A stretch of 64,000 nt of DNA, taken from Archangium primigenium. Its GTDB lineage: Bacteria; Myxococcota; Myxococcia; Myxococcales; Myxococcaceae. Location of the stretch: contig NZ_JADWYI010000001.1 in NCBI RefSeq assembly GCF_016904885.1, positions 6,262,001-6,326,000 of the forward strand, in the 5' to 3' direction. Positions 16,282 to 22,216 of the stretch are shown one piece after another; positions within the stretch are counted from its first letter, which is position 1; each line of letters starts with the position of its first letter. Position numbers and translations under genes: made by a program. The notes below the pieces were generated by a model. The model worked only from the letters and a program-made list of their open reading frames with translations. It made no database searches and was not told the origin of the DNA.

Positions 16282-17148
16282 ATGGACAACCCCTCGAACC
16301 GACCCCTCCCCCCGGTACTCGATGAACGCTGGAACACGGACGACGACGTCGCCTGGCCGGGCAACGTGCCCTCGCGCACCCAGGCGCTGGAAGCGCTGCG
16401 CGACCGGCAGCTCTTCGTGCGGCCCCTGCCGAGGGCGCGCCGGGTGCGCGAGCGGCTGTCCGCGCCCGAGCGCGCCGCCGTGGGGGGCAGCGGCTTCTGC
16501 CCCCTGTTGAGGGAGGCCACCGTGGTGCGCTGGCGGCTGGCGGCGGCGGCGGACCTGCTGCCGGCCGCGGGGTCCCGCCGCAGCGCCGTGGCCCTGCGCG
16601 CCCTGCTCGTGGAGGTGAACCAGATGACGAGCGCGCTCCGGGCCGCCCGGCCGCCCTCGGCCGAGCTCGCCCTGGCGCTCGACGCCGCCGGCGAGAAGCT
16701 CAACGCCGAGGTCACCGCCTTCCTGCGCTCGGTGAAGGCCGTGGCCGAGGTGCGGCGCACCCCGCCCCGGCGCGTGCCCCGTCTCGCGCTCGCGCCCCAG
16801 CCCCCGCTGCCTCCGGAGGCCCGCCGCTGGTCGGCCTCGCCCCTGCTCTCCGCGGCGCTGGTGCTCACCCTGACGGTGGCCGCCATGGCCGCGCTCCAGG
16901 GTCCGGTGGAGGCGCGCGCGCAGGGGTCCGAGGACAGCGCGCCGGATGCCTTCGTCACACCTCACGCGGGCACGGGCGCCCTGCTGGTGCGCTCGACCCT
17001 GCCGGGGCCGGAGACCGAGGCCCAGCGCGCCTGGCTGCGCTTCCAGGAGGCCAAGGGCATGCGGGTGACGATGCTCGGGCCGGGCAGCTACCTGGTGGCC
17101 CCCGCGCTCCGGGCGGATGCCTCGGGGCCCGGGCCCACCATGCCGTAG
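16282..17148 (+). CDS. Hypothetical protein with one transmembrane segment
   Basis: A protein of 288 residues from the ATG at 16282 (in-frame starts at 16213 and 16222 would add about 20 residues and cannot be excluded). It has an N-terminal soluble domain rich in Arg/Ala/Leu helices (residues 30-180), a single hydrophobic helix (SPLLSAALVLTLTVAAMAAL, about 195-214) and a short C-terminal domain of about 70 residues. That domain contains GTGALLVRSTLPGPETEAQ and AWLRFQEAKGMRVTMLGPGSYLVAP. I do not recognise a family. The next gene, 55 bases on, encodes a type IV pilin-like protein, so a part in a secretion or pilus-like assembly is possible but unsupported by motifs. Confidence 0.6.
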   Translation: MDNPSNRPLPPVLDERWNTDDDVAWPGNVPSRTQALEALRDRQLFVRPLPRARRVRERLSAPERAAVGGSGFCPLLREATVVRWRLAAAADLLPAAGSRRSAVALRALLVEVNQMTSALRAARPPSAELALALDAAGEKLNAEVTAFLRSVKAVAEVRRTPPRRVPRLALAPQPPLPPEARRWSASPLLSAALVLTLTVAAMAALQGPVEARAQGSEDSAPDAFVTPHAGTGALLVRSTLPGPETEAQRAWLRFQEAKGMRVTMLGPGSYLVAPALRADASGPGPTMP

Positions 17149-17203
17149 GCGCCCTCGGCGCGCCTCGGGGTTTTTCACACGCAGCACCAGGGGGGATGTC
17201 TCC

Positions 17204-17710
17204 ATGCTGTCTTCGTCCAGGCCGTACCACCCCGCCCCGCGTCGGGGCTTCACGCTCATCGAGTTGGTGATCGCCGTCACCCTCATCGGGCTCATCGTCG
17301 CGCTCGCGCTGCCGGAGCTCTCCGGCGTCGTGCTGCGCACCAAGCAGGGCGAGCGCGAGGTGATGATGAACGCCATCGCCCAGGCGGTGAACGACTATGC
17401 CTTGCACCACGAGGGCATGCTTCCCGGCGGACCCCTGCCGGATCTGCCCCGCAACCCCTCGCACGCCCCCGATGGCTCCCGGCAGTGGTTCTCCCCGGAC
17501 GTGGGCCGCTGGGCGGCCCTGGGCTGGCGGCCCGAGGCCCCGCTCTACTACCGCTACGACGTCACCAGCCCCACCCCCGACACCTTCGTGGTGACGGCCC
17601 AGGCGGACCTGGATCGCAACGGCCGGGTGAACGTCAAGTCCATCACCTATCGGCGCCGCGGCGGCACCTTCCAGCGCCTGTCCGAGACGGAGAGCGCGGA
17701 TCTGTATTGA
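17204..17710 (+). CDS. Type IV pilin/pseudopilin-like protein
   Basis: A 168-residue protein with a prepilin leader and the N-methylation signature: a short basic leader ending Arg-Arg-Gly, then FTLIELVIAVTLIGLIVALAL. Cleavage after Gly by prepilin peptidase would leave Phe1 and Glu5, both present. The hydrophobic helix would anchor the subunit in the inner membrane or filament core. The globular part (residues 50-168) has no pilin disulfide, but contains a conserved-looking NDYALHHEGMLPGG region and a terminal beta segment. Its length fits major pseudopilins (GspG-like) or minor pilins. No pilus or type II secretion genes are adjacent, so it is probably an orphan pilin-like protein using machinery encoded elsewhere. 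The start at 17204 follows a GGGGGGA ribosome site. Confidence 0.8.
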   Translation: MLSSSRPYHPAPRRGFTLIELVIAVTLIGLIVALALPELSGVVLRTKQGEREVMMNAIAQAVNDYALHHEGMLPGGPLPDLPRNPSHAPDGSRQWFSPDVGRWAALGWRPEAPLYYRYDVTSPTPDTFVVTAQADLDRNGRVNVKSITYRRRGGTFQRLSETESADLY

Positions 17711-17743: not shown

Positions 17744-18445
17744 ATGGGCGCTCAGTGGAAACACAAGGGCCGCACGGAGCACGCGGCCGCGAAGGGTCGG
17801 CTCTTCACCAAGCTGGTCAAGGAACTCATCATCTCCGCCAAGGCGGGCGGGGCGGAGGTGGCCTCCAACCCCCGGCTGCGCATGGCGGTGGAGCAGGCCA
17901 AGAAGGCCTCCATGCCGCGCGACACGCTGGAGCGCGCCATCAAGAAGGGCGCGGGCCTGCTGGACGAGCCGGTCAACTACGAGCTCGTCACCTACGAGGG
18001 CTTCGCGCCCCACCAGGTGCCCGTCATCGTCGAGTGCCTCACGGACAACAAGAACCGCACGGCCACCAACATCCGGGTGCTCTTCCGCAAGGGGCAGATC
18101 GCCACCACGGGCGCGGTGTCGTGGGACTTCAACCGCATGGGCGTCATCGAGGCCACGCCGCCCGAGGGTGGGGCCGACGCGGAAGAGGCCGCCATCGAGG
18201 CCGGGGCGGACAACGTGGAGCCGGGGGACGAGGGCGCCTCGCGCTTCCTCACGGGCCCCACGGACGTGGACACGGTGGGCAAGGCGCTCGCGGGCCTGGG
18301 CTGGACGGTGAGCGCGCAGAACCTCGCGTGGATCGCCAAGAACCCGGTGGAACTCGAAGGCGAGGCGCGCACCGAGGTGGAGGCCTTCCTCGAGGCGATG
18401 GACTCGGACGACGACGTGCAGAACATCTACGTCGGGCTCAAGTGA
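17744..18445 (+). CDS. yebC: YebC/PmpR-family translation/transcription factor
   Basis: A 233-residue YebC-family protein of normal length. It opens [29 protein letters not shown], close to the family's MAGHSKWANIKHRK start, then [23 protein letters not shown] and [20 protein letters not shown]. It ends in an acidic domain ([20 protein letters not shown]). Family members act as DNA-binding regulators (PmpR) or help ribosomes through polyproline stretches; the latter would suit this proline-rich proteome. The last codons overlap the first bases of the hemocyanin-like gene (GTGA), so the two are translationally coupled. No ruvC/ruvA genes, frequent yebC neighbours, are present. Confidence 0.93.
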
Positions 18446-20193
18446 GCCCCCCCGCGTCGCATGCCCGGCTGCGGGCGGTGCTCTGTCAGCCGGAGCCGCC
18501 GGCCGCGCCGCGCTTCCAGCCCGCCCTGCCCGCCCACCTGGAGCGGGCCCTGGACGTGGCGGCCCACTTCATGGCCCTGGCCAACGCCACGCCCGGCGAG
18601 GCCGGACTGCTCGCCATCGCCGAGGACGCCGAGCGGCGGGCGCGCGAGGGACACGCCGAGGAGACGGCCCACGCGCTGCGCATCTTCCTCGCCCACCACC
18701 CCGAGGGCCGGGACGTCCCCGTGCCGCCGCTGGAGGAGCGCGCGCCGCACCAGGTGCTGTCCTCGCGCCGGCCGGAGCCGCCGCGCAAGGCGCCTCCGGG
18801 CCTGCCGGGCGCGGAGGTATGGGTGGACTACTTCCGCGAGGACGCCGGGCTCAACGACATGCTCGACACGTGGCGGGTGCGCTTTCCCGCCGCGGGCCAC
18901 CCGGACCCCGCCGAGCCCTCGCGCCGCGTGCGGCCCGCGCGCCGCACCGAGCGCTACTGGCACGCGCACCGGCAACTGCTCGCGCGCTACGACACGGAGC
19001 GGCTGGCGTTCGGCATGCACCGGGTGGCGCCCCTGCAGGACTACACGGCGCCGCTCAACGAGGGCTATGACTCCCGGCTGCCGGGCTTCGCGCCCCGCCC
19101 GCCCGGGGTGAGCCTCCAGGGCCTGCCGGGCTACGACATCGCGGACCACGCCACGCGCCGCGACCGGCTGTTCGCCGGGGCCTCCTCGGGCCTGCTCTGG
19201 CATGGGGACACGCCCCTGGACTTGGAGCACCTGGAGCAGCTCGCCGACACGGCCGAGTCCACGCCGGACTCCCTGGATGGCGAGGCCTGGCGCGAGCCGC
19301 TCGGCCCGCATGGCGCGTTCCACCACATGGGCCAGGTGATGCTCGCGAACCTCCGGGCCCCGCGCGACACCTCGGGTCGCCTGGGCGTCCTGGGGAACCC
19401 GGCCACGGCGGGACGGGATCCGCTCTTCTACCGGTGGCACCGCCACGTGGACGACCTGCTCGACTCCTGGCAGTGCTCGCACCTGCTGCCGCACGACCTG
19501 TCCGACGCGCCCCCGGTGCTGCTGCGCAAGTGGATCGGCGAGGGCCCCTACCCCGCGCACCAGAGCCCGGACATCCTCCTGTGCTTCGAGAAGGACATGC
19601 CCGGCGCGGACGCCCCGGACTTCGACGGCCAGCGCTGGGGCGAGGCGACCTTCGGGGGCGAGCACTGGGACAAGCCGCCGCCGTCCTTCTTCGTGAGCAC
19701 GCACACGCTGCGCACGCACCTGGGCCAGCACGCGGTGCGCCTGCCGGACGGCACGGAGGCGTTCACGCCGCGCCTGGTGCACGAGCCCTTCGCGTACTTC
19801 CTGCGGGTGGAGAACACCCTGGAGCGGGCGCACACGGTGACGGTGCGCCTGCACCTGGTGGCGGACGCCTTCGCCGATGACCGGCGGCTGTGGATGGAGC
19901 TGGACCGCTTCGTCCACACGCTCGGGCCCCGGGAGCGGGCGGTCATCCACCGGCCCTCGCGGCTGTCGTCGGTGGTGCACGAGCTCGGCTGGCCCGCGCA
20001 CCTGCTGCTGCCCCGGGGCCGCCGGGAGGGCATGCTCTTCCGCCTCCAGATGATGGTCACCGACACGGCCTTGGAAGCGCGCGAGGAGGGCTATCCCTTC
20101 AACCGGCTCATGCCCCGGGGCCAGCGCCCGGTGGATCTGCTCGCCCTGCCGCACGTAGTGACGCGCAACATCTGGATCCACCACGTGGAGTGA
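18442..20193 (+). CDS. Arthropod-hemocyanin/phenoloxidase-like protein with incomplete copper site
   Basis: A 583-residue protein whose whole length aligns by eye with arthropod hemocyanins and hexamerins: an N-terminal helical domain (1-115), a central copper domain and a C-terminal beta domain. Matching blocks are YFREDAGLN (130-138), [16 protein letters not shown] (176-), [31 protein letters not shown] (293-), [13 protein letters not shown] (326-) and, near the end, [20 protein letters not shown] and [19 protein letters not shown]. Of the six copper-binding histidines only three remain: His176 (CuA), His294 and His333 (CuB). The first two CuA positions are Leu141 and Arg145, and the second CuB position is Gln298. 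Dioxygen binding or oxidase activity is therefore doubtful. No signal peptide is seen. It starts at a GTG overlapping the yebC stop. Confidence 0.82.
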
Positions 20194-20538: not shown

Positions 20539-21387
20539 ATGCGCCTTCGAGCGTGCCTCGCACTTCTGATCTACGCCTCTGCCTGCGCGACGTCAGCGCC
20601 GGGCCCAGAAGAAACCGTGGACTGGGATCCGGGGTACGCCAACCTCCAGCGAGCGGCGGCGCTGCCCTGGACGGATGGAGGACGGTGCGTGGTCCAAGAG
20701 GCATCGCGGCCGTGGCCCGTCCTCGCGGAGCGGTGCTATCACGCCCTGGACCATGACCGCGTTGAGTTTCACGACCTCACGGGAAGATGCGCGGTGGCCT
20801 CCGCTGCGGCCGCTACCGTGGGGTTCAGACTGTGCGTGCTGGCGGCGCCGGAGATTGCCGCGGGGGCGGTGGTGGTGACGGGCGTGGTGGTGGCGGGCTA
20901 CCTCATCAAGGAGGCCCTGCATCTCTACGAACTGCGGAGGGGTCGCCCTGAAACGCGCCCCGTGACAGAGCCGCGCCCGGTGCCTGTCACGAAGACCGCC
21001 CCGCCGAAGCCCGCTCCAGAGAAGAAGTCCAAGCCAGAGCCAAAAGGGCCGGATTTTCCTCCCGTGGGGCCAATTGAGGTCGCGGAGCGAGAGCGCCGTC
21101 GCAGGTGCGAGCCCATACCAGTGCCGCATGAGGGCAAAGATGACGCGCATGACAGGTGCGCAGACCAGGTTCCGCCCAACCGCTATCCCGGAATGGATGT
21201 GCTCGTGGGCGGTGTGAGCTTCGATGCGCTGCAAGTCGGTGTTCGTGTGCTGTGGGAAATCAAGACCCATCGATTTGACGCATACCCTGATTTTGTTCAA
21301 GACAAGGAAATCAGGAGGGAAATGATTCAAGTAGAAAAGCAGCAAAAGCTGCGGCGGCATGCGGATATGGCTATGTCGTTGGGGTGA
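20539..21387 (+). CDS. DUF6310-type lipoprotein with nuclease-like C-terminal domain, frameshifted near its end
   Basis: The open frame encodes 282 residues: a lipoprotein signal (lipobox Ala-Ser-Ala-Cys17), a region of about 90 residues, a hydrophobic segment (AAGAVVVTGVVVAGYLIKEAL), a Pro/Lys linker and a C-terminal domain starting RRRRCEPIPVPHEG. That domain resembles the myxobacterial DUF6310 family. Asp220, Asp229 and VLWEIKT (Glu240, Lys242) fit a PD-(D/E)xK nuclease core by pattern only. The frame ends prematurely in RRHADMAMSLG. A -1 change at the A4 tract 21344-21347 restores a typical ending (ACGYGYVVGVSTEAHKAALL and on) that stops at 21464, overlapping the next gene's ATG. It is thus a single-base deletion, a frameshifted expression or a sequence error. 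Probably an exported effector paired with the next gene. Confidence 0.72.
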   Translation: MRLRACLALLIYASACATSAPGPEETVDWDPGYANLQRAAALPWTDGGRCVVQEASRPWPVLAERCYHALDHDRVEFHDLTGRCAVASAAAATVGFRLCVLAAPEIAAGAVVVTGVVVAGYLIKEALHLYELRRGRPETRPVTEPRPVPVTKTAPPKPAPEKKSKPEPKGPDFPPVGPIEVAERERRRRCEPIPVPHEGKDDAHDRCADQVPPNRYPGMDVLVGGVSFDALQVGVRVLWEIKTHRFDAYPDFVQDKEIRREMIQVEKQQKLRRHADMAMSLG

Positions 21388-21460
21388 GCACTGAAGCGCA
21401 CAAAGCCGCGCTGCTCGAAGAAAGTCCCACTCTCGATGTTGTTGTCACGGGGTGCACTCG

Positions 21461-22216
21461 ATGACCAAGCGTAAAGCCCTCACCCTCATCGTTCACGCGC
21501 CTGCTCTCGTGGGCAAAGACAGACGCACGCGCGATGTCGTCCATGGCATGGAGAAGGCGCTCCCCGGCTTGCGCCTGGAGTGGCGGATCTCCGAAGGCGG
21601 GCACCCCATCACATTGCCGCAGCGCGACACGTGGCTCGTGGAAAGCATTGAGGACGGGGGATTCCCTCTCGTGTGCAACGGGGACGAGAGTTACCCCGTG
21701 ACGGTTTGGGGAATGGGAAAATCGGGACTCCTCAGCGCAGGCGGTCAGGACCAGTTTGAAGTGCATGCGAAACTGCCACTAGGCGAGCCCGTGATTGCGG
21801 CAGCAGCGAATGTGCTGGAAGGAATGGCGGAAGGGGCGCGCGCATTTTGGGGGCACGCGTCGCCGTATGGTTACGGCTCGGAAGTCGCGCAGCAGTTTCG
21901 CCGCTCGCCTCATGGACCGGAGCGCTCACCCCGTGGGCTTCCCATGCTCAACCTTCCAGAGGAGCTCCCCGCGCCTGAGATTCCCTGTTTCCTTGGGTGG
22001 CTGAACTATTGGTCCGCCGCTGCCGCGAAGGCCATCCAGTTCCCGGATTCTGCTCGCGACGCGGATCTGCGCTTGCGCTCACGGCGTACGGCATCGGGCG
22101 GGTGGGTCGTGCAGCTCACCGAGGCGCCGCTCGACCTGGACAACCCCGCCCACCTGGACGCGCTCAAACGGGCCTACGAGCGCTTCCCGGAGATTGGCGG
22201 GCGCACAGCCCCCTGA
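21461..22216 (+). CDS. DUF5953-type protein, probable partner/immunity to the DUF6310 lipoprotein
   Basis: A 251-residue soluble protein beginning MTKRKALTLIVHAPALVGKD. This opening and the following DVVHGMEKALPGLRLEW are typical of the DUF5953 family, found in myxobacteria beside DUF6310-type genes. The ATG at 21461 overlaps the stop (21462-21464) of the frame-restored DUF6310 gene by ATGA, a classic coupled pair. No membrane segments or catalytic motifs are apparent. Other recognisable segments are WGMGKSGLLSAGGQDQFEVH near residue 85 and FLGWLNYWSAAAAKAIQFPD near 180. The cognate-immunity role is inferred from gene order and family co-occurrence that I recall, not from experiment. Its last 43 bases overlap a minus-strand HEAT-like remnant. 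Confidence 0.7.
   Translation: MTKRKALTLIVHAPALVGKDRRTRDVVHGMEKALPGLRLEWRISEGGHPITLPQRDTWLVESIEDGGFPLVCNGDESYPVTVWGMGKSGLLSAGGQDQFEVHAKLPLGEPVIAAAANVLEGMAEGARAFWGHASPYGYGSEVAQQFRRSPHGPERSPRGLPMLNLPEELPAPEIPCFLGWLNYWSAAAAKAIQFPDSARDADLRLRSRRTASGGWVVQLTEAPLDLDNPAHLDALKRAYERFPEIGGRTAP

Follow-up and report, generated by a model that had tools for sequence, protein, structure and literature searches.

A bacterial arthropod-type hemocyanin homologue and graded loss of its copper ligands in a myxobacterial clade

A hemocyanin homologue in myxobacteria

The hemocyanin-like gene that follows yebC in Archangium primigenium encodes a full-length homologue of the arthropod-type (beta-subclass) hemocyanins and phenoloxidases. 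Judging from the aligned copies, the loss of copper ligands in this protein is common to a myxobacterial clade and is neither a local mutation nor a sequence error. The superfamily and its copper-dead members are already known; what is new is a bacterial clade with graded ligand loss. As far as the accessible text of a 2013 survey goes, only alpha-subclass type-3 copper proteins occurred in the bacterial and archaeal genomes that it examined (PMC3658974), and the accessible sections of a 2018 paper draw the relatives of the arthropod proteins from tunicates, hemichordates, sponges and fungi (PMC6034248). No description of a bacterial arthropod-type hemocyanin was found among the matches listed from the open-licence literature, searched by titles and starts of abstracts for the spelling "hemocyanin". 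The bacterial beta-subclass lineage, with its six-histidine and ligand-poor members, constitutes a natural series in which zero to four ligands are lost on one fold. This series allows asking directly what a hemocyanin does once its copper pairs are no longer bound.

Gene, protein and predicted fold

The gene occupies positions 18442–20193 (+) of the window, the 64,000-nucleotide stretch of DNA analysed here, in a genome of 9.49 Mb. It has a GTG start and an open frame for 583 amino acids, and intact homologues are present in ten relatives. Membership of the superfamily is supported by homology, as both the Hemocyanin_M and the Hemocyanin_C models of Pfam match significantly. The copper domain (PF00372) spans residues 127–339 (18820–19458, +; E 7.3e-24, 84.9 bits against a cut-off of 20.8), and the C-terminal beta (Ig-like) domain (PF03723) covers approximately residues 350–583, the left limit being estimated (19489–20190, +; E 6.3e-13, 49.1 bits against a cut-off of 26.4). 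Hemocyanin_N gave no Pfam match in the window protein, and neither NCBIfam nor PADLOC matched it. When the PDB was searched with phmmer, the best match was scorpion hemocyanin 3ixv (E 9.6e-40); Limulus hemocyanin 1lla matched at E 8.1e-30. By eye, a signal peptide was not apparent at the N-terminus.

The AlphaFold2 model of the window protein is of moderate confidence (mean pLDDT 67.6, pTM 0.70) and is weak at the copper site, with residues 267–322 below a pLDDT of 50. The predicted fold extends over the full length and comprises three domains: residues 3–583 superpose on 1lla with a Z of 24.7 and an rmsd of 4.0 over 486 aligned residues. Among the matches listed, 23 hemocyanin, prophenoloxidase, hexamerin and AsqI entries reach Z 18.6–24.9, and unrelated folds come next at 8.2 or less. 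The full-length resemblance proposed in the earlier note, including the C-terminal beta domain, is borne out by Pfam, phmmer and the fold match of the model, and the two blocks of 28 and 10 residues that it had cited are both present in the translated protein.

The arthropod hemocyanins and prophenoloxidases (Limulus 1lla, scorpion 3ixv, Manduca 3hhs, Aedes 8jib) have the same full-length fold as the model (Z 23.0–24.9), and the motifs YFRED, ARYDxER, RDPxFYxWHR and GWPxHLLxPxG are held in common. In comparison with them, the window protein is devoid of half of the copper ligands and of the cysteine stretches of the C-terminal domain. It is ~28–30% identical to three of the four, and its gene sits after yebC in a bacterium.

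Directly upstream, yebC (17744–18445, +; TACO1/YebC family, PF01709, E 6.2e-44) ends with a TGA stop at 18445 that overlaps the GTG start of the hemocyanin-like gene (GTGA). The arrangement recurs: yebC is directly upstream in ten of the 11 copies (the window and nine of ten relatives), and the GTG start overlaps its stop in eight of the 11, the window included. Two copies (L037 and L038) have their start ~25 bases further downstream, and one (L043) has no yebC on its 19 kb contig. Elsewhere in the window, a gene carrying the N-methylation motif of type IV pilins (17117–17710, +) lies directly upstream of yebC. Just downstream of the hemocyanin-like gene, a DUF6310 gene with a lipoprotein-like start is followed by a DUF5953 gene (20539–22216, +), a pairing reminiscent of the exclusion toxins and immunity proteins of the SitA/SitI type in myxobacteria.

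Copper-ligand positions

The ligand pairs were counted by hand on the phmmer alignment with 1lla, in which we take H173, H177, H204, H324, H328 and H364 of Limulus to be the copper ligands. In the CuA site, Leu141 (18862–18864, +) stands at CuA1 (H173) and Arg145 (18874–18876, +) at CuA2 (H177), with His176 (18967–18969, +) retained at CuA3 (H204). The CuB site keeps His294 (19321–19323, +) at CuB1 (H324) and His333 (19438–19440, +) at CuB3 (H364), with Gln298 (19333–19335, +) at CuB2 (H328). This alignment confirms the three replacements and three retained histidines listed in the earlier note. The window protein holds three of the six histidines of a functional hemocyanin or phenoloxidase (type-3 copper protein); with the usual set of six incomplete, an ordinary binuclear site presumably cannot form. 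An intact tri-histidine half-site like that of AsqI or PngL is also absent from the window copy (CuA L, R, H; CuB H, Q, H). As regards a hexamerin-type protein, three of the six ligands are lost in the window copy, and the two CuB histidines are invariant across the myxobacterial clade.

Near relatives with a complete set of histidines, envisaged beforehand as a counter-case, were not found: none of the 11 myxobacterial copies holds all six. Three copies (L037, L038 and L039) hold five and one (L040) holds two, the loss per copy ranging from one to four; the window copy has lost three. CuA1 is never His (L/V/I/Y in 11/11). CuA2 is His in three copies and R, Q, P or Y in the other eight, and CuA3 is His in eight and R or N in three. 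At CuB1 and CuB3, His is present in 11/11; at CuB2, six copies have His, four Gln and one Glu. The CuB tri-histidine set is intact in six of the 11 copies, the window copy not being among them. Such ligand loss in the window protein and its relatives makes the usual oxygen binding unlikely and another job probable.

CuA1 and CuA2 rank among the most variable columns: an entropy at least that of CuA1 is found in 6.5% of the 582 columns, and one at least that of CuA2 in 2.6%. CuB1 and CuB3 have zero entropy. Columns conserved in the six-histidine proteins (the same residue in at least eight of nine) are unfixed in myxobacteria in 15 of 22 cases near CuA (127–180) versus 5 of 18 near CuB (270–345), a post hoc comparison with a Fisher p of 0.025, or 0.045 without the ligand columns; column 179 is fixed, but at a different residue, and was not counted. 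All 11 myxobacterial copies retain E272 as well as the RED and RDPxFxxWH motifs. Three cysteine columns of the C-terminal domain are filled in 9/9 six-histidine rows and in 0/11 myxobacterial rows, and this domain of the window protein is without the cysteine-containing stretches of its six-histidine relatives.

Distribution, phylogeny and selection

The family is rare and scattered within what was searched. The gene is present in 11 of the 98 genomes examined, that of the window included. Of 195 Myxococcota genomes, 11 have a Hemocyanin_M match, all 11 belonging to one family and three genera. For Acidobacteriota, the Pfam model matched in 2 of 396 genomes, both also reached by an earlier genome-contig scan. 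At class level, searches with the acidobacterial copy L016 found matches in 2 of 162 and in 3 of 148 genomes, one of the three being dropped as probably spurious. A match in genome G792 (L051; E 1.1e-4, 96 residues) is probably spurious, lying by eye on the strand opposite to apparent transporter genes. Of the 72,556 plasmid records searched, two carry a copy, both of them conjugative plasmids of Rhizobium indicum. No relative was found in viral contigs, searched with the window protein and with alignment A3, or in phages, searched by tblastn with L016. Other phyla were covered by one genome-contig scan and by the plasmid, phage and viral searches.

The nearest relatives outside the myxobacterial clade are bacterial proteins with six histidines (6/6 counted), namely L016, L017, L044, L056 and L057 of Acidobacteriota and L032 of a Rhizobium plasmid, which are 35–45% identical to the window protein. 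Compared with the myxobacterial copies, they hold all copper histidines and the C-terminal-domain cysteine columns, and they have other gene neighbours. The N-terminal part of L057 is in a different frame from the rest, and the main frame alone was used. No count includes the second Rhizobium plasmid copy (L033), which tblastn with L016 matched in two pieces.

In a midpoint-rooted tree of 20 rows, without fungal sequences and with six rows deviating in composition, the myxobacterial copies form one clade (support 100/100), and the six-histidine L016 is its sister (98/97). The arthropod rows are separate from the bacterial copies; the three arthropod reference sequences also have six histidines. 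At 0.7 changes per column, the myxobacterial stem is long; within its genus group, no branch is longer than that of the window copy (0.29 versus 0.014–0.03). The six-histidine outgroups (6/6) and the six-histidine sister argue for ligand loss within the myxobacterial branch. By parsimony, CuB2 was lost at least twice, in the genus group of the window copy and in L040. The simplest history would be a single CuA1 loss on the myxobacterial stem, with further CuA losses and the CuB2 losses later. This small, thinly sampled, midpoint-rooted tree does not favour a recent transfer out of animals.

The hemocyanin-like frames are free of stops in 11/11 genomes. In eight pairs sharing 78% identity or more, omega is 0.05–0.11 by YN00 and higher, 0.15–0.49, by NG86; third-position GC is 0.97. 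By these estimates, close pairs of copies are under purifying selection. Pairs including the window copy have NG86 values only, of 0.47–0.59, and selection on the window lineage alone is thus less firmly shown. One same-genus genome (locus L012) has an extra fragment on another contig (L045:5422–5811, −), which matches only about the last 77 residues of the hemocyanin-like protein.

Possible roles of the remaining site

We favour, at slightly under an even chance, a cytosolic protein from a CuA-losing myxobacterial branch that works through its remaining CuB half-site. The ancestor would have been a type-3 copper protein with six histidines, which would have lost CuA1 on the myxobacterial stem and other ligands afterwards. 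The present protein may be cytosolic, with O2 perhaps no longer held at a dicopper centre, and H294 and H333, together with the His, Gln or Glu at 298, might form a reduced site for one metal ion or ligand. Such a site could act as a Lewis acid or bind the substrate, in an enzyme comparable to AsqI and PngL of fungi. The persistence of His at CuB1 and CuB3 (11/11) against its absence at CuA1 (0/11) argues for a working CuB half-site. So do the greater number of unfixed conserved columns near CuA, the retention of E272 and the RED and RDPxFxxWH blocks in every copy, the low YN00 omega of close pairs, and the fungal one-site proteins. Counting against it are the non-His residues at CuB2 in 5 of the 11 copies, the window's included, the higher NG86 omega, particularly in the window pairs, and the weakness of the model at the copper site.

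AsqI (PDB 5yy2/5yy3) has the same fold as the window model (Z 22.4), and in both AsqI and PngL/PenL one of the two copper half-sites is gone. According to the accessible text of its report, AsqI is a zinc-dependent cyclopenase in which zinc at site A is needed and site B is lost, and PngL and PenL have site B and lack site A (PMC6053404). Like PngL, six of the 11 myxobacterial copies retain site B; AsqI has site A and lost B, whereas the B site of the window protein has Gln for one His. The fungal genes lie within alkaloid gene clusters, whereas the window gene follows yebC. The same accessible text suggests that PngL may act mostly by pre-organising its substrate and not by metal catalysis (PMC6053404), which counts against a metal site in the myxobacterial protein. 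A mononuclear metal site may exist in the window protein and would have fungal counterparts in AsqI and PngL/PenL. The five-histidine copies L037–L039 may have a weak two-metal site.

Nearly as likely as a CuB half-site enzyme is a metal-free pseudoenzyme, in which the hemocyanin fold would serve as a scaffold, form an oligomer or regulate another process, with the CuB histidines perhaps retained for structure only. The absence of three of the six ligands from the window copy and the repeated loss of CuB2 would be in agreement with it, and copper-dead animal examples exist. In the accessible sections of one paper, insect hexamerins, crustacean cryptocyanin and the millipede protein CleHcBI2 are hemocyanin relatives with lost copper ligands; CleHcBI2, with three of six histidines replaced, in both sites, evolved ~4.5-fold faster than its sister subunit (PMC6034248), and the myxobacterial stem is long too. 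Hexamerin structures also match the window model (for example 3gwj, Z 22.7). A metal-free protein is harder to reconcile with CuB1 and CuB3, which stay invariant while the CuA positions drift, and with CuB2, which is only His, Gln or Glu, residues able to hold a metal or a hydrogen bond. The hexamerins, cryptocyanin and CleHcBI2 are animal proteins with an actual or supposed storage role, whereas the bacterial clade has its invariant CuB histidine pair. A hexamerin-type storage role was rejected, as no evidence supports it for the bacterial protein, and the storage part of the hexamerin-like path suggested in the earlier note is left without support. Its expectation of a "new functional class" goes too far: other branches of the superfamily have become copper-dead before, as far as the accessible sections show (PMC6034248).

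It is improbable that substitute ligands maintain a working dicopper centre and that the protein still carries oxygen or acts as a phenoloxidase. L037–L039 retain five of the six histidines, and H335, which is His in 11/11 myxobacterial copies, is close to CuB3 in sequence; however, the same His is found in the six-histidine L016 and L032, and H335 is therefore no replacement ligand by alignment. No conserved His occurs at a shifted CuA position in the alignment of the 11 copies: residue 140, a Met in the window copy, is His in six copies, and residue 174 is His in five, H174 of the window aligning with Tyr in 9/9 six-histidine proteins. Residue 334 of the window is Arg. By alignment, the gaps are not filled by these neighbouring positions, among which 174 and 334 had been named beforehand as possible sources of a ligand. 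Least credible of all is a decaying gene or a sequence error. The long window branch and the truncated C-terminal fragment in one relative (L012) would fit decay, but the stop-free frames in all 11 genomes, the placement after yebC in ten of the 11 copies and the YN00 omega of the close pairs speak against it.

Gene neighbourhood of the six-histidine copies

Arthropod prophenoloxidase is activated by proteolysis. The six-histidine loci with protease and domain-I genes resemble parts of that system, in a small sample of loci. A protease gene is close by in three of the four six-histidine loci with readable context (two of them in one genome) and at 4 kb in the fourth, a count on four loci without a chance control; L016 and L057 lie on contigs shorter than 5 kb. 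In genome G196 (gp7 Acidobacteriota), both six-histidine genes are followed by a gene for domain I only (108 and 115 aa) and then by a caspase-domain gene. In three acidobacterial loci, the hemocyanin gene is followed immediately by a stand-alone gene (108–117 aa) that matches only domain I of the six-histidine hemocyanin (L017:5768–6091, L061:3985–4329 and L016:3887–4237, all +), the one of L016 (117 aa) adjoining the hemocyanin gene near the contig end. The caspase-domain genes of G196, with a CHAT-domain protein further downstream of one, are located at L017:5979–7256 (an open stretch), L061:4334–5521 and L044:11513–14632 (all +).

On the Rhizobium conjugative plasmid, a subtilase and an MBL-fold gene precede the six-histidine hemocyanin gene (L032:2267–7767, +). 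The neighbours have PADLOC matches to LmuA, RTasMBL and Avs1a, the latter below the NCBIfam cut-off, and a Shedu SduA-domain gene is nearby; the locus is possibly a defence island. A second Rhizobium plasmid has the same locus, in which the hemocyanin gene is annotated in pieces and apparently broken (L033:5783–7593). In L056, the subtilase is ~4 kb off, with two genes between, one of them on the other strand; the L016-based class-level search and locus inspection found no lone domain-I gene there.

It is conceivable, but rather unlikely, that the bacterial six-histidine members are protease-controlled oxidases with the separate domain I as a possible detachable plug, a counterpart of the prophenoloxidase cascade. 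The yebC-linked myxobacterial clade would then be a copper-dead offshoot turned mononuclear metal enzyme or regulator. Whether bacteria have a prophenoloxidase-like control can be tested, given the protease and lone domain-I genes near some six-histidine copies. Two small neighbours were also noted. A protein with a PKCPxC motif and no Pfam match (L057:4295–4840, +) adjoins the L057 hemocyanin copy. A similar motif is found in a MerC-like small membrane protein (L060:2409–2828, −), which adjoins the L016 hemocyanin and scores 27.5 bits, just below the Pfam cut-off of 27.6.
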